A stretch of 27,271 bases of DNA from a virus: positions 1-27,271 of IMG/VR virus record IMGVR_UViG_3300031741_000015, one strand, 5' to 3'. The notes beneath the pieces are model-generated. The model made no database searches, was not told the origin of the DNA, and saw only the letters and a program-made list of their open reading frames with translations. A program made the position numbers and the translations under genes. The stretch's first letter is position 1. Each line of letters opens with the position of its first letter. Below, in pieces: positions 5,077 to 12,937 of the stretch.

Positions 5077-5277
5077 TATAAAATACTCTTTTTTGAGCAA
5101 AAAATGAAAAGTGAAAATTAGAATGTCGGTCCAGTGTGCTGTAGTATGACTTGTAGTAATGGAGAAATCATCTTTCTAAGAGAGTAGGCTTAAAAAGTGT
5201 GAATTATATTACCTAATTTTTACTAAGCTTTCTTGAAAGAGTATTTTTGAAAATACTATTTTCTAAATATTGGAGTA
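5077..5277. other. Non-coding stretch with nested inverted repeats
   Basis: No credible gene is seen. AAAATACTCTTT at 5080-5091 is the exact reverse complement of AAAGAGTATTTT at 5236-5247, so the 144 bases between could be closed into one RNA domain. The right arm also forms a local hairpin AGTATTTT-TG-AAAATACT at 5240-5257, so two structures compete. A plus-strand TATATTAC occurs at 5205-5212 with no plus-strand gene after it. The leftward transcript from 5880 should cross this part as a 3' untranslated region or small RNA. A 17-codon minus-strand frame exists here but lacks a good ribosome site. Confidence 0.35.
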
Positions 5278-5763
5278 TCAACGATATGACATTTGTTCAA
5301 AAAGGTTTTTATTCTCATAGCCAGGTCTCAATCCAATTAGAGTAACTTTAATCCCCTTATAGCTTAATTCTTTAAAAGAAGACCATTCTGGAAAAATGAA
5401 CACAATTCCAACTGTATGCACGTATACCATTATTCGTTTCTCTTGAAATTCTAAAAGAAGCGATCCTTTTATAGGATATTTAAGCACATCTAAAAATGAT
5501 TTATAATTCCTACATCTTTATAATATTGATTAAAATTTCCTTCTGCTAATTGAATTACTGACGTATCGCTTAGTTTCTCAGAGTATCCAATATTTTTTAA
5601 AAAGTCTTTCATCTCGGAAGATAATTTGTATTCTAGAACTTTCTCAAGAATTTTAATATTTTTAGGAGGAACAGGATAACATTTGGAGTTCGATTTTAAG
5701 TTTTTTAGAACTATCGGAACCATGACTCAGGTAGATACTTTCAAGACCTGTTAAATTATACAT
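5278..5763 (-). pseudogene. Frameshifted gene, SUKH-like N-terminal half possible
   Basis: Three overlapping frames read as one protein if two single-base changes are made. The well-placed start is the ATG at 5763 behind TGGAGG, reading M-Y-N-L-T-G-L-E-S-I-Y-L-S. Removing one A from the A-run at 5701-5706 joins it to the frame ending at 5490 (77 codons when read from 5723), and adding one T to the T-run just before 5490 joins that to the frame ending at 5278 (69 codons, GTG start at 5487 with no ribosome site). The joined protein would be about 160 aa. The segment P-P-K-N-I-K-I-L-E followed by L-S-S-E-M-K-D-F-L resembles the start of SMI1/KNR4 (SUKH) immunity-type domains, a weak match by eye. 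It could be a decaying gene, a sequence error at homopolymers, or programmed slippage. Confidence 0.5.
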
Positions 5764-5879
5764 TTTCCTCCAAAGATTGAATGATTTTTTTAAGTTCGAA
5801 CGATGACGCTCAGCTTGTCTGAGCACAATAGTTCAGGCTTAAAAAATCTTATTGTGAACTTTGAAAATTTATTTGTTAT

Positions 5880-5887
5880 ATAATATA
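5880..5887 (-). promoter_or_regulatory. TATATTAT promoter-like box for the frameshifted gene
   Basis: The minus strand reads TATATTAT here, 117 bases upstream of the ATG at 5763. The leader between contains a small hairpin, GCTCAG and CTGAGC around a five-base loop (about 5804-5820). The box matches the group found before other accessory genes. Confidence 0.4.
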
Positions 5888-6302
5888 TTCTTTAATTTTT
5901 AAATCTTTTTTTTTTATTTAATTTTAATGCAAAATCGAGTTAAAAGTTTTTTTATATATTATGATTGGTCTGAGTTTTTAAAAACTCTTTTTTCTAAATT
6001 TTTAGTTTTGTCCGTACCGTCTGGTTCCGTCAAAACCTTTTTCTTTTTTTTTCTTTTTATATATTTTCTTTTTTTTTTTTTATTAAAAGTTTAAACTACA
6101 GTATATTTTCTTTTTTAGTTTCACAAAAAGAAAAATACAATATCTTTCTTTTTTTTTGTTCAATAGCTTTCTTTCTTTACACCACTTTCTTTCTTTAACT
6201 TTTTTTTTCTTTAACTTCCTTTTTTCTTTTGATCTAAACTTTTTTCTTTTGCTAGAAATTAATTAAAATCTGAGCGGTTAAATTTTAGCTAACCCAACGA
6301 TG
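5888..6302. other. Gene-free poly-pyrimidine tract
   Basis: No gene, RNA gene or clean hairpin is seen in over 400 bases. The plus strand is dominated by T-runs broken by single C residues, strongest from about 6040 to 6260. It includes short direct repeats such as TTTCTTTAACTT (twice near 6190-6215) and CTTTTTTCTTTTG (twice near 6222-6252). Such a strand-asymmetric tract could be an unwinding element of a replication origin, a protein-binding array or a spacer left by gene loss. No iterated origin-type motif could be proven by eye. A TATATAAATA box at 6304-6313, just after the tract, may be the promoter for the next gene. Confidence 0.5.
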
Positions 6303-6332: not shown

Positions 6333-7424
6333 ATGAAACTTATCCCAACCGAGATTGAAGCCACCAAGACTTTTTTCTCCACCCTTTTTGCAAGAAGAAT
6401 CCCAAATGTTATTTTATTTAAAGATCGAGATTTTCAAGTTTTCACTACGGTGACTCTGGAAAATATTTCAAGAGATTTTTTAGAAATTAATGATGTGGTG
6501 CACACTGTTTTCATAGATAAAAATAAGACAAAATATTTTTCGACTATATTATGGGAAGACCTACTTTTACCTCTTAAAAATCACGATTGTTTTCTCCTTG
6601 GAATTAAACTAATGACGTTTATAAATAAGTGCAGAAAGGAGAAAAAACAAACACTCGAATTAAAAATTATTAATAATAAAATATTTGCAATTTCAGAAGA
6701 ATCTAGGTTCGAATGTGGGTATATTTTATCAGGTCTTAATGCTGAAAAGTTTTTCAATTTAGCTATCTCTGAGAAGCCCGATAAGATCTTCCTAACCGAA
6801 GAGATTTCGTTAGCGAATATTGATAATTCTAAACTTTCATTTTTGAAGATATCCAGTCGAGATTTAGCTTTTAACATAGCTGTTGTCAATGGATATAACA
6901 CGATAAATAAAAAAATAATTTGCGATGATAGTAAGATAACTTTTCTAGCCCAAAGAGACCAGCAACTTTTTAGATATATTATAAAAAGCATAACCCCAAC
7001 TGTTAGAGTTTTTACATATTTACCTAAAAATATTTTTGTTGCTTTTAAGGATATTCCTAAAGAAAAAAGACTCATGGTTTCGGGATCTAGAACCTTTAAC
7101 GATAGAGAATTATTGTTTAAAGAATTAGATAAATTAGATTTTGATATACTAGTGAGTGGTGGGGCTAAAGGAGCAGATAGGTTAGCTGAAGATTACGCTG
7201 AGAGTCATAATAAAAAAATAGAGCAATATCTTCCGGATTGGGATACTCACGGTAAGAAAGCTGGTATTCTAAGAAATGTAGAGATGCTTAAAAACTGTGA
7301 TAGGTTTATTGCGTTTTGGGAAAATAAAAGTCCTGGAACCAAACATGCTATAGAAACAGCTAGAAAAAATAAAGATAGATTTAAATTCATTAAAATAATA
7401 AATGTTGGAGGAAACAATGTTTGA
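6333..7424 (+). CDS. SLOG (DUF2493/YspA-like) protein with unknown N-terminal domain
   Basis: Residues about 246-355 form a SLOG-superfamily Rossmann domain of the DUF2493 type. Signature positions are V-S-G-S-R-T-F at 249-255, S-G-G-A-K-G-A-D at 275-282, D-W at 302-303, R-N at 314-315, A-F-W at 327-329 and G-T-K-H at 335-338. SLOG domains bind nucleotides or nucleotide-derived ligands and are common in phages and in defence loci (family knowledge). The first 240 residues are not recognised; they look beta-rich, and their length is that of a sliding clamp, a resemblance too weak to call. TGGAG precedes the ATG. It is the first gene of the plus-strand operon and overlaps the next gene by eight bases. 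A ligand-sensing or modifying enzyme is the best guess. Confidence 0.8.
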   Translation: MKLIPTEIEATKTFFSTLFARRIPNVILFKDRDFQVFTTVTLENISRDFLEINDVVHTVFIDKNKTKYFSTILWEDLLLPLKNHDCFLLGIKLMTFINKCRKEKKQTLELKIINNKIFAISEESRFECGYILSGLNAEKFFNLAISEKPDKIFLTEEISLANIDNSKLSFLKISSRDLAFNIAVVNGYNTINKKIICDDSKITFLAQRDQQLFRYIIKSITPTVRVFTYLPKNIFVAFKDIPKEKRLMVSGSRTFNDRELLFKELDKLDFDILVSGGAKGADRLAEDYAESHNKKIEQYLPDWDTHGKKAGILRNVEMLKNCDRFIAFWENKSPGTKHAIETARKNKDRFKFIKIINVGGNNV

Positions 7425-8853
7425 AAAAACAGATGATGATTGGGAAAAAACGATTTACGATGCTAAGAAAAAAGAAGACTTATTATCTCAAAAGAATATT
7501 ACTAAAAACCTCCCTACTGAGAAAGCTTTAAATATTTCTAAGTTCTGTAAGGTTTTTACTGGGGACCTAGAAGAAGTTCTACAGACAATAGAATCAGAAA
7601 CTCAAGACGATGAAGGTTTGGAAGAAGCTATTAAAGACAATAACTCGTATACCAATAACCTGTTGTATTCTTTATACCACGGGCTCCATACAGCTCAATG
7701 CGGCTGGTTAAAAGAAACTTTAAAACTCATTAAGGCTGATAACGTAAAGTTAATCAAAAGTATCGAAGGTCTCACAGACACTATAACTAGAGGAACTTCT
7801 TTTAATAATTCTCCAGAGCTAAGTGGGGCTAGAGCAAAGGAAACTTTGATTGCTAGAACTGGCGGAGTGATGAAGGTCTATCTTTTCAATAGTGGGTTTT
7901 GGATAAACGTTAGATCTCTAAATTTATCAGAATTAAATTCTTTTTACGATACTGTCGATATCAACGGCAAAGAATTCGGTAAGATATTAGGAGGTCATTC
8001 ATACCTACTATATGACAATTTCATTAAGCAGCAATTCTGTGATTTTATTCCAAAAATGGTTTTGAGTAGTAATCTTAAAGACTGGCATAAGAAGTCTAAT
8101 CTTCTTAATAAAATATCATTTCACGACTACCCAACTATCTTATGGGCAGCCTGTTGTATGCTTTTCAAACGAGGTTTAGAAATAGGTGTCGTGTGTTCTA
8201 ATCAAGAATGTAAACATATTGAAAATAATACAAAACTCGATATTAAAAAAATGAGAGTGACTAACTTCGACGCTTTAAGCGAAACTGCCATCACAATGCT
8301 AAGATCTGATGATGAGAAATCGACTAAAGACATTGAAGCATATAAGAAAGAGTTAAACTTAACTGAAGAATTTAAACACTCTAATTTTAAAATAACAGCC
8401 AGCGTCCCATCTATAGGGGAATATCTAAAGATCTCTAATGAATTAACAAGCTCATTAATAAATGCTCTAAGAGGAGAACCTAATTTAGATAATAAAGAAA
8501 TTATTTCAATGATAGCCATATATTTCTATCCGACTTTAGCTCCATGGATAAGTAAGTTGACCTTTCTTAAACCGGACGATTCAATTGATTTCTTCACTAA
8601 GGACACGTCAGTTATCTTGAATTTTTTAGTTGGGTATAAAAGAACAGAAGAGAAAGATGTAGAAGATCTATTCGTGGATAAGTTTCAAGACTTTATTAAG
8701 AGATCTAGATTATCTTTAATATGCTCACAGCCTCTCGAATGTCCAAAATGTCATAAAGGGATAGAAACGGAAGATGATCTTTTTCCACTGGATTTACATG
8801 AATTGTTTTTTATGATTACCTGTCGTCAATTAGAGATCGGGGGTTCGCTCTAG
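7417..8853 (+). CDS. Zinc-binding baseplate-type protein, zero-frame product
   Basis: The start at 7417 is chosen over an in-frame ATG at 7402 because TTGGAGGA lies just before it; it overlaps the previous gene by eight bases. The 478-aa product has two Cys pairs that could hold zinc: C260-x4-C265 within RGLEIGVVCSNQEC and C442-x2-C445 in a CPKC. The second is followed by L-D-L-H-E-L-F-F at 458-465. A Cys-rich ribbon followed by an acidic/Phe-Phe segment recalls the T4 gp26-type baseplate hub proteins of myophages; this is a pattern resemblance, not a proven match. The last 13 zero-frame residues after F465 look unlike the rest, and the natural continuation lies in the -1 frame (8802-9206). 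It therefore probably makes a short and a long form, or the sequence lacks one T. Confidence 0.65.
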   Translation: MFEKTDDDWEKTIYDAKKKEDLLSQKNITKNLPTEKALNISKFCKVFTGDLEEVLQTIESETQDDEGLEEAIKDNNSYTNNLLYSLYHGLHTAQCGWLKETLKLIKADNVKLIKSIEGLTDTITRGTSFNNSPELSGARAKETLIARTGGVMKVYLFNSGFWINVRSLNLSELNSFYDTVDINGKEFGKILGGHSYLLYDNFIKQQFCDFIPKMVLSSNLKDWHKKSNLLNKISFHDYPTILWAACCMLFKRGLEIGVVCSNQECKHIENNTKLDIKKMRVTNFDALSETAITMLRSDDEKSTKDIEAYKKELNLTEEFKHSNFKITASVPSIGEYLKISNELTSSLINALRGEPNLDNKEIISMIAIYFYPTLAPWISKLTFLKPDDSIDFFTKDTSVILNFLVGYKRTEEKDVEDLFVDKFQDFIKRSRLSLICSQPLECPKCHKGIETEDDLFPLDLHELFFMITCRQLEIGGSL

Positions 8854-9206
8854 AAGAGTACAAAGCTAGGTTCGGAAAATTCACCAAGCTGCTAAATACA
8901 TCGACAGGTTTCCTTAAAGATTTGGGGTTTAATATTTTTAACGACACTCACGACAACGGCGAGATTCGTGATGACGCTTCCCCTTATCGACATATTAAGT
9001 TTTATGAAAAAAATATAAGTAGAGATATTTTCTCATTTAGAAACATTATAGAACTCTGCGCGAGTGAGGAAAATATAGAATTTTTTAAATTCTCACCGAC
9101 TGACGTTCTTAAAATGGATTTCGATACGTACGTATTCTTACAAGAATTAACTGAAGAATATTCAAATATAAGAAAGAACCTTAAAGACGAAGGAGAAGAT
9201 GGATGA
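8802..9206 (+). CDS. C-terminal part of the baseplate-type protein in the -1 frame
   Basis: This frame is open from just after a stop at 8799-8801 to the TGA at 9204-9206 but has no ATG or GTG start and no ribosome site; the first TTG (8922) also has none. Reading from the T-run it continues naturally as Tyr-Asp-Tyr-Leu-Ser-Ser-Ile-Arg, then a charged helical segment, with the upstream 62 bases overlapping the zero-frame gene. The simplest reading is one protein of about 600 aa made by a -1 shift at G-TTT-TTT (8805-8811), or by slippage in the six-T run. About 130 residues are encoded after the shift point. The end overlaps the next gene as ATGA. It has no domain that I recognise by itself. 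Confidence 0.65.
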   Translation: MVFYDYLSSIRDRGFALEEYKARFGKFTKLLNTSTGFLKDLGFNIFNDTHDNGEIRDDASPYRHIKFYEKNISRDIFSFRNIIELCASEENIEFFKFSPTDVLKMDFDTYVFLQELTEEYSNIRKNLKDEGEDG

Positions 9207-9763
9207 AGATTTTTTTCGATACCGAATTTACCGGGTTAACTAAAGATACAACTTTAATATCTATAGGGTGTGTCTCTGAAAACCTTAAAAAATTCTATGC
9301 TGAATTTACAGATTATAATAAATCGCAATGTAGCGATTGGATTAAAGTAAATGTTTTAAATAACTTAATACTAACTAAAAATAAGAGGGATAATTACCAA
9401 GGGTGTAACGCGGTAACTGTTCTAGGCAATACTAAAAAGGTAGTTGATGCTTTTAAAGAATGGTTAGATCAGTTTGAAGCCATTCAATTTGTTTCAGATG
9501 TTTCGCATTACGATTTCGTCTTACTGGCAGATTTATTCGGAGGAGCACTAGAGCTACCTAGTAATATTTCTCCAGTATGCCACGACATAAGTCAAGATAT
9601 AGCTAAGCATCTTAATATATCAGATGCTAAAGCTTTTAACGTCAATAGGGAAGAATTCGCAGGATTCTTTGACACGCTGAAGCATTTGAAACATAATGCA
9701 TTATTCGATGCCGAAGTTATTAAACAGTGCTATACTAAGATGGAAAACTTACCAAGATTTTAA
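9203..9763 (+). CDS. DnaQ-fold DEDDh 3'-5' exonuclease, Rv2179c-like
   Basis: A 186-aa nuclease that would trim single-stranded 3' ends of RNA or DNA with two metal ions. Acidic ligands are visible as F-D-T-E-F (D6, E8), H-Y-D-F (D104) and H-x4-D in KHNALFDAEV (H164, D169), the complete DEDDh set. The early F-Y-A-E-F and later D-W-I-K-V-N segments match the small Rv2179c-like exoribonuclease group better than polymerase proofreading domains. It starts in an ATGA overlap with the baseplate-type frame, with AAGGAG upstream. The polymerase at 138-2195 lacks an exonuclease domain, so a proofreading role in trans is conceivable, but RNA processing or salvage is more typical for this group. Confidence 0.8.
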   Translation: MKIFFDTEFTGLTKDTTLISIGCVSENLKKFYAEFTDYNKSQCSDWIKVNVLNNLILTKNKRDNYQGCNAVTVLGNTKKVVDAFKEWLDQFEAIQFVSDVSHYDFVLLADLFGGALELPSNISPVCHDISQDIAKHLNISDAKAFNVNREEFAGFFDTLKHLKHNALFDAEVIKQCYTKMENLPRF

Positions 9764-9777
9764 AGAGGAGTAAAATT

Positions 9778-11541
9778 ATGGACAGTGGGTTATTAGTTTT
9801 AAATTCTAATGTTGGGTTAACTAACGTTATCGAAGGAAAAAAATTAAACAAATTAATGATATCTACATTTAAAGATATTAAGAAAAAATTATCGGATCAT
9901 TGCGGGCCTTATGGTAACTTCGCTATTTTAACTGATCCTACAGACCCTACCAATACGGCTGTCCATACTAAGGACGGAATAAATATAGTAAGAAACATGT
10001 ATTACGCTAGCCCTATACAAGAATTCATTAGAAGAACTATAATGTATCTTGGGACAAAAGCTGAGAATTTAGCTGGGGATGGAACTACAGCATCTATGAT
10101 CTTTGCGGTTTCCGCTTTGGAGTATATTTTAAAGAAAAAATCCTTAGATAAATATACTTTTAATGAACTTAAAGATCTATTCGAAGATTTTTTAGAAGCT
10201 CTAGCTTGGTTATATACGGATGAAATAGTTACACTTAATGAATACTCACGCTTCTCTAAAAAGGGAGACTCTGCTGATATTGACGATATTGCTTTTTCTC
10301 AAGCATACACCTCGTCACACGGTAATGAGAAAGTTTCTAGGATAGTAGCTGAATGTTTTAGTAAAATGCCTAAAGAGACTTGGGGTTTTATTTCATGTGA
10401 AAGATCTAGATTAGAAACAACAAAAGATATATCTCTAGAGTGGGACGATTCCCAATGTTCTTTCCCTGCTTTAGCACTTAAGAATTCAATGATGAATTGT
10501 TCACAGAATTCTGCTTATGTAAGTTCTGAATGTGACTTATTGATACTCCCATTCGAACCTACCGAAAGACAATTCATATATTCTTATTTTAATAAGTTTT
10601 TAGACGATTATGATAACGAAAAAGATTTAGTTATTATAGTACCCACAGCGACTAGTTGTCAATTACAAACTAAACTAGATGCTTTTTCAGAAAAAAATAA
10701 TAAAGTAGCTATTTTTAAATATTTCATTTCTCATCAGGAACTTCCAGAGTTAGAATGCCTTACTCTTTTAAGCGGATTCGAAAAAAAGGATATGTATTCT
10801 AAACTCTTAATCAAAAGAGGTGTTGATGTATCTTATAGGGATAAGACAATTAGATTTAAGAATCTATACCCAGGTACTGATGATATTATAAATCCGCTAA
10901 GTAAAGTTGGAGATATAGCAGAAACTCTTAAGGACATTACTCAATGTATAGAGTTAGAGCAGATGGATAACGCTAATGTTGGAAATAGTAAAAAAGTTAT
11001 TAGTCTTAAAAAATATTACCTTAAGTTATTCCTACAGAAAAGATGTAAGATAATCATAGGTGGAGCAGCTCACGATAATAGCGCTCTAGTTGATCCGGTT
11101 CAAGATACTATAATAGCTGTTTATAATACTCTCACTAACGGCTTTGTATTTTCTCAAAATTATAGCTTAAGAAGAGCTTTAACTAGAGTTAAAACTACCA
11201 ATCCCGAATTTAAAGTTTTCGCTAAAGCTTTCCTATATTCCATAGACGAGTATAGAAAATGTTTATTCAAGTTCAGCCCTAATGATAGCTTTAAGAAAAA
11301 GTTTAACCGTCCATTTACTATTTTTAACTTTCTAGAAAAAGAAAGTAAAAACAATATTGTAGTAAATGAGTGGAAAAAAAGAGGGACTTCTAAAATAATA
11401 GAACAGTTTTCTAAAACAAACGAACCTCTAATAATTCAACCTTCTAATATAGATTTAGCCATCCTAAAAAGATTTGCTGAAATCTCTTTGAAGTTTATTA
11501 AAAGCTCCAGAGTTTTAGTCCCTAATAGCGTAGTAAAATAA
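9778..11541 (+). CDS. groEL-like: Phage group I chaperonin (GroEL homologue)
   Basis: A 587-aa chaperonin subunit expected to form an ATP-driven folding ring for phage proteins. Key parts of the equatorial domain are present: G-P-Y-G at 43-46 (GroEL GPKG), T-K-D-G at 64-67 and A-G-D-G-T-T at 99-104. Near the C-terminus, I-I-G-G-A-A at 426-431 is followed by V-Q-D-T at 441-444, which aligns with the GroEL segment holding Asp398. All three catalytic Asp equivalents (D66, D101, D443) are thus kept. The middle, apical part (about 190-380) is hardly recognisable. The GGM-repeat tail of bacterial GroEL is absent. GroEL is about 548 aa, so this one is longer. AAAGAGGAG precedes the ATG. No co-chaperonin (GroES) gene is seen. 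Chaperonins are known in the jumbo phages EL, OBP and AR9; its place in a structural operon suggests virion clients. Confidence 0.9.
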   Translation: MDSGLLVLNSNVGLTNVIEGKKLNKLMISTFKDIKKKLSDHCGPYGNFAILTDPTDPTNTAVHTKDGINIVRNMYYASPIQEFIRRTIMYLGTKAENLAGDGTTASMIFAVSALEYILKKKSLDKYTFNELKDLFEDFLEALAWLYTDEIVTLNEYSRFSKKGDSADIDDIAFSQAYTSSHGNEKVSRIVAECFSKMPKETWGFISCERSRLETTKDISLEWDDSQCSFPALALKNSMMNCSQNSAYVSSECDLLILPFEPTERQFIYSYFNKFLDDYDNEKDLVIIVPTATSCQLQTKLDAFSEKNNKVAIFKYFISHQELPELECLTLLSGFEKKDMYSKLLIKRGVDVSYRDKTIRFKNLYPGTDDIINPLSKVGDIAETLKDITQCIELEQMDNANVGNSKKVISLKKYYLKLFLQKRCKIIIGGAAHDNSALVDPVQDTIIAVYNTLTNGFVFSQNYSLRRALTRVKTTNPEFKVFAKAFLYSIDEYRKCLFKFSPNDSFKKKFNRPFTIFNFLEKESKNNIVVNEWKKRGTSKIIEQFSKTNEPLIIQPSNIDLAILKRFAEISLKFIKSSRVLVPNSVVK

Positions 11542-11551
11542 GGAGTTTTAA

Positions 11552-11962
11552 ATGATTGACTTACCTACAATATCGATAAATAAAACCGTGCAGTTTACGT
11601 CGATTAACCCATACGATACTCAACTATACAGCGGAAAGATAATATCTATCTGTAATAGTAATATAGCTAGAAACTATGGGGATATCGTAAAGTATAATAA
11701 TCAAGTTCAAGGTATAGCCCCAACAACAGGAGATATTTCAACATTAGATTTTTTTATTATTCAGAATAGTAAACAGAATTCCCCAGCTCCATTCGCAACA
11801 CAGTGGATTTTGGCAGGATCGCTTAAAATAATTACTGTCCCGGCGGTAGGGACTATAGAGATCTATAACACAACCTCCGAATTACTATCATCGGCAGTTA
11901 GGTTGCTAACAGCGAACGGGTTTTCAGCTAAGCTTATTGTATCAGCTACAACTGAAAATTAA
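11552..11962 (+). CDS. Small beta-rich putative structural protein
   Basis: A 136-aa protein starting 10 bases after the chaperonin stop, with AAGGAG before the ATG. It is rich in Ser, Thr, Ile and Asn, has alternating hydrophobic residues typical of beta strands, and has no catalytic motif, signal or membrane segment. Its centre has Q-W-I-L-A-G-S-L-K-I and the end has L-L-T-A-N-G-F. Last gene of the plus-strand operon. Its position after a chaperonin and near tail genes suggests a virion or baseplate component, possibly a chaperonin client. No named family can be supported. Confidence 0.7.
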   Translation: MIDLPTISINKTVQFTSINPYDTQLYSGKIISICNSNIARNYGDIVKYNNQVQGIAPTTGDISTLDFFIIQNSKQNSPAPFATQWILAGSLKIITVPAVGTIEIYNTTSELLSSAVRLLTANGFSAKLIVSATTEN

Positions 11963-11989
11963 AAAAAAAGAGATCTTAATCGATCTCTT
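11961..11989 (-). terminator. Leftward intrinsic terminator at the end of the hairpin region
   Basis: AAGAGATC and GATCTCTT (8 bp) enclose a six-base loop at 11968-11989, and on the minus strand the stem is followed by an eight-T run. On the plus strand there is no T-run, so rightward transcripts from the chaperonin operon probably read through. It ends leftward transcripts that carry the 44-aa gene at 12331-12465. Confidence 0.65.
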
Positions 11990-12299
11990 CTGGTTCTAGA
12001 TAGAATCTATCTAGTTACCTTTTTAGGATGTAAATTAAATAATTCATTGTCTTCCTCCCTACCATGAGAGTATTTCCTCTACTCACATGATAACATATTG
12101 AGAAACTTACCTAACTCCTACTCTTGAGAGTAGGAGTCGGGTTAAGTTCTCTTAAACTAAAAAATTTTACGCCTTGACCTAGGAAGATCCTCATGAGTGA
12201 GAACATAATCAGTGTCTATCAACCCTGTTGATAAAACCCTCGTGTCGACGAATGCTATAGTGCATCAAGCTCCCTTAGCTAGAGGGATATTGTTTTTTT
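11990..12299 (+). ncRNA. Candidate structured RNA or long 3' untranslated region
   Basis: No gene fits here, but stem-loops follow one another: CTAGATA/TATCTAG (near 12000), CATGAGAGTA with one mismatch (near 12063-12090), CTCCTACTC/GAGTAGGAG with a TTGA loop (12116-12137), which is extended outside by GAG-AACTTA/TAAGTTCTC with a bulge (about 12100-12152), TATCAAC-CCT-GTTGATA (12217-12233) and the final T-tailed stem at 12271-12299. That gives a terminated rightward RNA of about 300 nt, either a separate small RNA or the tail of the chaperonin operon. The stems read equally on the minus strand, where they would be the 3' part of the transcript of the 44-aa gene. No known RNA family or tRNA is recognised. 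Confidence 0.35.
12271..12299 (+). terminator. Rightward intrinsic terminator
   Basis: TCCCT and AGGGA pair around a seven-base loop (12271-12287), and a seven-T run follows at 12293-12299. This is the first T-tailed hairpin downstream of the plus-strand operon that ends at 11962, so it is its likely end point. Confidence 0.55.
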
Positions 12300-12330
12300 G
12301 ATTACGGGATAACAATCAACCCACTAAACA

Positions 12331-12465
12331 TTATCGACTGCGAGATAAATCATCACGGTCAGTAGGAGGTCTTGCCTTTGGACGGCATTTTCCTCGCAAC
12401 GCTCTTTTAGAACCTTTAGGTTTTCTAAAGATTGAAAAAGTTTTATTCGATGTTGTCCTAGACAT
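12331..12465 (-). CDS. 44-aa arginine/lysine-rich peptide
   Basis: A short minus-strand frame with an excellent ribosome site (AAAGGAG, seven bases before the ATG). The 44 residues contain nine Arg and six Lys against three Asp, with one Cys at 27; the C-terminal third reads R-P-K-A-R-P-P-T-D-R-D-D. Such a charge suggests binding to nucleic acid, for example RNA, ribosome or phage DNA. It is alone in a ~1 kb gene-poor spacer, has a TATATTAC box 258 bases upstream and a long structured leader between. Small basic proteins with a Pro-rich acidic tail do occur in other large phages, but I cannot name a family. The start and coding nature are well supported; the role is unknown. Confidence 0.6.
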   Translation of the reverse strand: MSRTTSNKTFSIFRKPKGSKRALRGKCRPKARPPTDRDDLSRSR

Positions 12466-12477
12466 AATAGTCTCCTT

Positions 12478-12663
12478 TAGAAATATCTTTGTTTATAACA
12501 GAGGAGAGTCCCTAACATTAGGGTTGCCGTGCTCTAACTCATTTTCTACCTGAAAATGAAACTCTCTTGTTAAGTATTAAGATAAATCTTTTATTGATTC
12601 ATAGTAGTAATGTATAACTCAAGTGGTATGATCTACACCCATTCCGATCGGGTGATTCTACTG
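12478..12663 (-). promoter_or_regulatory. Structured leader of the 44-aa gene, possible SD switch
   Basis: Reading leftward, the first domain (12617-12666) has an outer stem AACTCA/TGAGTT and an inner stem CACCC/GGGTG. The second (about 12504-12566) is a multi-branch fold with closing stem GAGAGT/ACTCTC, arm CATTTTC/GAAAATG and arm CCCTA/TAGGG. The 3' strand of that closing stem runs into TCTCCT, which is exactly complementary to AGGAGA of the ribosome site of the 44-aa gene. Forming the closing stem or pairing with the ribosome site are thus competing options, the layout of a translational switch. No known riboswitch class is recognised. Confidence 0.4.
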
Positions 12664-12722
12664 AGTTTTAATTATAAGATTTAATCCTTTAGAGTCGGTT
12701 AAACTTTTGTTTAATCATATAA

Positions 12723-12730
12723 GTAATATA
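12723..12730 (-). promoter_or_regulatory. TATATTAC promoter-like box for the 44-aa gene
   Basis: The minus strand reads TATATTAC inside a wider AT-rich patch. It lies 258 bases upstream of the ATG at 12465, and the hairpin-rich leader lies between. It is identical to the octamer at 110-117. Confidence 0.45.
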
Positions 12731-12891
12731 TAAGTAAAAATCTTCAATCTCCACTTTTGTAATTTAAGAGACGAAGGATTTAAAAGGTGCTAAAACGGCT
12801 ATCAGAAAGACTTTTTAACTACTTATTATGGGTCAAATACATAGTCCCAATACAGATGTATTGGGACACCATTGTTAACATGAATAAAGGC
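12731..12891. other. Gene-free spacer with a 24-base near-perfect palindrome
   Basis: No gene with a ribosome site is seen. GTCCCAATACA and TGTATTGGGAC (11 bp, exact) flank only two bases at 12844-12867. It may be a protein-binding site or a second hairpin behind the terminator at 12892-12930. A 20-codon minus-strand frame crosses it but has no ribosome site. Confidence 0.45.
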
Positions 12892-12930
12892 ATTTAGACT
12901 ATCTTACTCTTATAGTAAGATAGTCTAAAT
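12892..12930 (-). terminator. 17-bp perfect hairpin after the minus-strand virion operon
   Basis: ATTTAGACTATCTTACT and its exact reverse complement enclose a five-base loop, beginning eight bases after the stop of the gene at 12938-13918. On the minus strand there is no long T-run downstream, so termination may be factor-aided. It resembles the stem at 2412-2447 in length and lack of a T-run. Confidence 0.6.
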
Positions 12931-12937
12931 TTATGTT

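Follow-up and report, generated by a model that had tools for sequence, protein, structure and literature searches.

The window, by which is meant the whole stretch of DNA that was analysed, corresponds to an entire virus record of 27,271 bp; this record is a 27-kb genome fragment, and the genome is known within it alone. The polymerase, tail tube (PF23971) and hub encoded here belong to divergent families that place the source virus among the phiKZ-like jumbo phages, with less than about 34% identity to any phage isolate in the collection compared. A run of same-strand genes extending from 6333 to 11962 contains a chaperonin gene, which is separated by 14 nt from the gene before it and by 10 nt from the gene after it. 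The features of this run are as follows:

6333..7424, plus strand, first gene of the run, a fusion with a YspA-like SLOG domain (PF10686, E 9e-16)
7402..8853, plus strand, putative baseplate-hub gene of the phrog_4585 / phiKZ gp77 family (phrog_4585, E 3.6e-35; phiKZ gp77, E 9e-63)
8922..9206, plus strand, small protein of 94 aa between hub and chaperonin (a profile from 17 loci also matches the loci L114, L131 and L184)
9203..9763, plus strand, RNase-H-like 3'-5' exonuclease (phrog_2259, E 1.3e-45)
9765..9770, plus strand, Shine-Dalgarno sequence GAGGAG of the chaperonin gene, read directly from the sequence
9778..11541, plus strand, chaperonin gene encoding protein P0001 of 587 aa (family matches, AlphaFold fold and VIA superposition)
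11540-11545, plus strand, Shine-Dalgarno sequence AAGGAG of the SH3DP gene, seen in the sequence
11552..11962, plus strand, SH3DP of 136 aa, PF20287, phiKZ gp49 family (profile matches PHIKZ049 in PDB 9xqs, E 9e-9)

Two further stretches of the record lie outside this run. The stretch at 11963-12937, which lies between convergent genes and holds no sizeable ORF over its ~975 nt, folds far better than shuffled sequences (z -6.7 on one strand and -6.6 on the other, against -1.0 for a control gap at 5100-6030); locally, the minus strand usually has the lower z, and this strand ends in an intrinsic terminator at 11991-11966. Neither an Rfam match nor a convincing similar sequence in isolate phages was found for this stretch, which is a candidate for a large structured non-coding RNA. 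On the minus strand at 5278-5723, two adjacent small ORFs (77 and 69 aa) lie in an AT-rich stretch of 1.3 kb, and the first has a weak SUKH/SMI1-KNR4 match (E ~0.01); the pair may represent a SUKH gene that is broken or frameshifted.

The chaperonin ORF and its coordinates were given correctly in the preliminary description, and the good ribosome-binding site GAGGAG supports the gene. P0001 is matched by the phrog_5725 groEL family (E 1.4e-19) and by Pfam Cpn60_TCP1 at E 4e-8, with 32.8 bits against a curated cut-off of 34.3; this cut-off is passed by several of the relatives described below, and all 19 members of the clade match at E <= 0.01. The best PDB match of P0001 is the phage EL chaperonin 6tmt (E 6.5e-7), which is also matched by a profile of the clade at E 1.3e-24, and the N-terminal third is the main region in which sequence searches detect a chaperonin. 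At the level of sequence, the homology of P0001 to chaperonins is thus beyond chance. An AlphaFold2 monomer, predicted from an alignment of 19 sequences, has a pLDDT of 81.5 and a pTM of 0.80, with low confidence confined to residues 1-13 and 502-535. In VIA, the model superposes on GroES-bound GroEL with Z 29.4 (rmsd 3.5 A over 487 residues) and on group II chaperonins with Z ~25-27; no EL chain is among the 50 matches listed, which are therefore uninformative on EL. In Foldseek, chaperonins match the model over ~600 columns at E ~3e-20. The model therefore has the three-domain fold of chaperonins (equatorial, intermediate and apical), the lack of which had been named beforehand as grounds for rejecting the identification.

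Relatives of P0001 have been found by alignment-based searching. Full-length ones were first detected with an alignment that included the chaperonins of AR9, of EL and of Staphylococcus and Listeria phages, and a second search seeded with those hits led to about 20 loci; when viral contigs were searched with one sequence at a time (the chaperonin, the tail-tube protein and a 1096-aa protein), nothing was found. After removal of duplicates, 18 distinct relatives were kept, which are 582-700 aa long, have 18-30% identity to P0001 and lie on contigs of up to 319 kb. A further member of the clade, L184, lies on a 6.4-kb contig of a Clostridia MAG from sheep colon, perhaps a misbinned phage contig. 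In a tree of 48 rows (P0001 and the 18 relatives, 20 reference proteins and nine additional viral contigs) and 534 columns, calculated under LG+C20+F+G4, P0001 and its 18 IMG/VR relatives form one clade with support of 100/100; its stem measures 1.73 substitutions per site, more than any other inner branch.

Across the loci of this clade, the genes follow the order phiKZ-gp77/phrog_4585 hub, small protein, chaperonin, SH3DP. None of the 23 related loci, of which 18 are distinct, lacks a hub homologue one to three genes upstream of the chaperonin gene, and L184 has one as well. BLAST detects SH3DP downstream in 16 of the 18 distinct loci, to which PF20287 adds a further locus; this domain is present in 15 of 18 members of the SH3DP family. 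In 8 of the 18 relatives, the chaperonin and SH3DP genes share a 4-bp ATGA overlap. In the relatives examined, the small gene is followed immediately by the chaperonin gene, and the exonuclease is inserted between them only in this record. The N-terminal region of the gene at 6333..7424 is conserved in the lineage, with homologues in L026 and L028. SH3DP, the phiKZ gp49 protein, has been described as an SH3 protein that interacts with the phage DNA polymerase and whose silencing leads to strong plaque phenotypes (PMC12571901), and its link to the polymerase has also been reported elsewhere (PMC7824862). The chaperonin had been said to be embedded in a structural operon; this agrees with the putative baseplate-hub gene upstream but not with the exonuclease and the DNA-polymerase-associated SH3DP, which directly flank the chaperonin, and the operon is a mixed cluster, not a purely structural one.

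This arrangement bears on a first alternative, in which P0001 would be an assembly chaperonin dedicated to tail and baseplate proteins, above all to the adjacent phiKZ-gp77-like hub, as had been suggested when it was described as dedicated to virion proteins. Besides the hub gene found near the chaperonin gene throughout the related loci, the chaperonin genes of AR9, Machias, Madawaska, L038 and L061 likewise have a hub homologue one to three genes upstream (hhalign P 4e-7), the GroEL-like chaperonin gene of Vibrio phage pv27 (L016, 1480-3060) is situated between the tail sheath and tail tube genes, and an AR9-type chaperonin with similar neighbours has been detected by mass spectrometry in virions of Staphylococcus phage DC4, on which its authors were cautious (PMC10638138). 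The hub family is annotated as baseplate hub or baseplate protein in phages MJ359 and AH06, but it has no PDB match, so that its baseplate role rests on annotation, namely two depositors' names and the gp25-like neighbour in AR9, where gp231, a remote hub homologue (hhalign P 4e-7) three genes upstream of the chaperonin gp228, adjoins a gp25-like wedge gene; in the literature searched, no papers on phiKZ gp77 were found. Against such a dedication, the gene next downstream encodes an SH3 protein associated with the DNA polymerase, an exonuclease gene intervenes between hub and chaperonin, and phiKZ-like phages have the hub gene with no chaperonin beside it. The local gene order is moreover conserved as a whole, so that adjacency is unspecific and weak evidence for a client. 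As the fixed neighbours are a putative baseplate protein on one side and a partner of the DNA polymerase on the other, and the operon is mixed, dedication to virion proteins is unproven and the earlier claim is not borne out; we regard this alternative as possible but doubtful.

A second question is how far the ATP site has been kept, for which the following positions are relevant:

9898..9915, plus strand, phosphate-binding loop HCGPYG, residues 41-46 (GroEL T30-G35; His stands at the T30 position in 18 of the 19 clade sequences)
9973..9975, plus strand, codon of D66 (GroEL D52; an Asp in each of the 19 clade sequences)
10078..10080, plus strand, codon of D101 within GDGTT (GroEL D87; kept in 19 of 19)
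11104..11106, plus strand, codon of D443 (GroEL D398; kept in 19 of 19)
11152..11160, plus strand, S459-Q460-N461 replacing the GGG nucleotide loop (GroEL G414-G416, by alignment to GroEL)
11437..11439, plus strand, Q554 replacing GroEL D495 (17 of the 19 clade sequences have Gln here, within the signature I[IV]QP)

The identification of D66, D101 and D443 as the three catalytic aspartates agrees with this alignment, and the motifs GPxG (43-46), TKDG (64-67) and GDGTT (100-104) are present as described; all through the clade, TKDG keeps its Asp-Gly and GDGTT its DGTT core. The ATPase site had been called complete, which applies to the phosphate/Mg half but not to the nucleoside half, where GGG has become SQN, D495 has become Gln and T30 has become H41. 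The GGG position is variable across the clade, and the NAA motif, as mapped on GroEL, is lost. Judged from the alignment, T30 to His and D495 to Gln are signatures of the branch, and the Mg/phosphate half of the pocket is intact while the nucleoside half is rebuilt.

As the nucleoside half is unconserved, ATP turnover is not to be assumed, and P0001 might be an ATP-binding or slow-turnover holdase or scaffold, in which the Mg/phosphate residues are kept and the nucleoside contacts lost, and not a cycling foldase. The clade-wide loss of the GGG loop and of D495 would fit such a role, as would the replacement of K51 by Thr in the relatives L116 and L130 and of P33 by Lys in L130. The invariance of the Asp triad speaks against it, as does the dN/dS of 0.12-0.24 over the whole chaperonin gene in three pairs of relatives, which indicates purifying selection on the gene in these relatives, and we consider this reading improbable. 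It is less probable still that the rebuilt pocket marks a branch whose cycle is coupled to its fixed partners, for example a chaperonin for the polymerase/SH3DP complex or for the hub, with SH3DP serving as an adaptor or co-chaperone.

The apical domain, which had been described as hardly recognisable, is so in sequence, but its chaperonin fold is retained in the model:

10393..10905, plus strand, apical domain, about residues 206-376 (fold kept in the model; no lid insertion)

Identity to GroEL, averaged over the clade, falls from 17% in the equatorial domain to 15% in the intermediate and 13% in the apical; among the clade members themselves, the values for the three domains are 29%, 33% and 19%. 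Of the eight hydrophobic residues of GroEL that contact substrate and GroES (helices H and I), three are kept in P0001 and in OBP, five in AR9 and six in EL, where single assignments are uncertain because they come from sequence alignment at low identity, and these positions are unconserved even inside the clade. A built-in lid of the kind formed by the apical helical protrusion of group II chaperonins was considered and rejected, because there is no insertion at the apical tip of P0001. The largest insertions are instead equatorial loops after residues 477 and 502, near whose corresponding region the ring-ring interface of EL differs (PMC7185714). The GGM tail is indeed absent, P0001 ending in SRVLVPNSVVK, but it is also absent in EL, OBP, AR9 and the other aligned jumbo-phage chaperonins, so that its absence is not distinctive.

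The statement that no GroES is encoded nearby holds for the 27-kb record, in which a Cpn10 HMM finds no match. It also finds none in 15 related records of unstated completeness, including clade contigs of 235,559, 235,833, 238,219, 249,638, 265,480, 307,821 and 318,604 bp, and it detected Cpn10 in 12 of 14 control genomes, although T4-gp31-like proteins could escape it. The 136-aa downstream protein was considered as a cryptic GroES homologue and rejected, since its profile matches the SH3-fold PHIKZ049/SH3DP family. An adjacent groEL-groES pair is seen in Flavobacterium phage elemoF (L019, 1444-3257), unlike in the case of jumbo-phage chaperonins. The chaperonins of EL, OBP and AR9 have been shown to work without a co-chaperonin and to stay open (PMC7185714, PMC9598537). 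For P0001, the same had been proposed, and the Cpn10 result together with the loss of five of the eight GroES-site hydrophobics makes it plausible, within the limits that the unstated completeness of the records and the possible escape of gp31-like proteins set.

That P0001 instead uses the GroES of the host as a group I chaperonin is very unlikely. The AlphaFold2 monomer does superpose best on closed, GroES-bound GroEL and not on the open state expected of phage chaperonins, but a monomer prediction is not decisive between open and closed states; the GroES site is poorly kept in P0001 and unconserved in the clade, the GGM tail is absent, and EL, with six of the eight hydrophobics in the same alignment, does not bind GroES (PMC7185714).

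With respect to its position among chaperonins, the clade shares a node supported at 100/99 with the AR9 group and a few contigs without affiliation, and P0001 falls outside the AR9 clade (99/96), where the long branches call for caution on the deep order but not on the clade itself. The slightest chance is left to P0001 being an ordinary, merely fast-evolving member of the EL/OBP group, because, although EL is its best single PDB and BLAST match, the tree sets it apart from EL/OBP (100/100), which form a clade of their own, grouping the P0001 clade with them is rejected (AU p 0.002), and EL/OBP-type genes mostly adjoin a thymidine/thymidylate kinase gene. The suggestion of a new branch is thereby upheld: P0001 and its 18 distant relatives, set off by the longest inner branch, form a clade for which no description was found in the literature searched, and this is a previously unrecognised and very divergent branch, nearer to the AR9 group than to EL/OBP. 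Chaperonins of 617-636 aa also occur on the contigs L037, L042 and L101, with another neighbourhood (a gene of ~230 aa before and one of ~265 aa after), and that of L037 lies near the AR9 group in the tree.

Taken together, P0001 is probably a bona fide, very divergent phage chaperonin, with the predicted function of a lidless, ATP-hydrolysing ring that works without GroES. In this mechanism, subunits with equatorial, intermediate and apical domains would assemble into a heptameric ring, which may be single as in AR9 and OBP or loosely paired as in EL; ATP hydrolysis and movement of the apical domains would then drive the binding, holding and release of non-native phage proteins, so that aggregation would be prevented and folding aided without a GroES lid or encapsulation. 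Ring formation, ATPase activity and an aggregation-preventing or folding activity without encapsulation are inferred from the model and from the precedents of EL, OBP and AR9. The linked hub protein and SH3DP, the partner of the DNA polymerase, are the first candidates for clients.

Only the phage chaperonins of EL, OBP and AR9 have been described experimentally in the literature searched, to which a new and far more divergent branch of about 20 members is now added, occupying one constant place in the genome and altered in its ATP pocket throughout the clade. This branch offers natural variants for asking which parts of the nucleotide site and apical surface of GroEL a lidless chaperonin needs, and the hub and SH3DP are two concrete candidates for what phage chaperonins fold in vivo.

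Among known systems, phiKZ and its relatives share with the source virus the same divergent DNA polymerase and the families of the phiKZ-gp77-like hub and gp49-like SH3DP, but no chaperonin is annotated beside the hub gene in phiKZ, MJ359, LucasX, AH06 and Phobos. Bacterial GroEL is like P0001 in its three-domain fold (Z ~28-29) and in the equivalents of D52, D87 and D398, but the two proteins have only ~18% identity, and P0001 is without the GGM tail, GroES site, GGG loop, T30 and D495, with no GroES gene seen in the 27-kb record. EL gp146 and OBP gp246 are likewise divergent, with a kept catalytic core, a remodelled apical domain and no known co-chaperonin; EL, however, keeps GGG, NxA and D495, which P0001 does not, and the neighbours of EL/OBP differ from those of the clade, being mostly thymidine kinase. 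The nearest characterised group is formed by AR9 gp228 and its relatives in Staphylococcus and Listeria jumbo phages (Machias, Madawaska and LPJP1), and the clade profile aligns over its full length with the AR9 and Machias chaperonins. As in P0001, the Asp triad is kept in this group, the GGM tail is absent and D495 is lost (Asn in AR9), and in AR9, Machias and Madawaska the hub gene lies a few genes upstream, as in the clade. The group differs from P0001 in that identity is only 18-21%, in that AR9 keeps G414-G415 (AR9-type proteins have GGN here and show the pocket changes in milder form) and has Ser at the T30 position, and in that the nvRNAP gene lies two genes downstream of the AR9 chaperonin, whereas in the clade SH3DP is next door.
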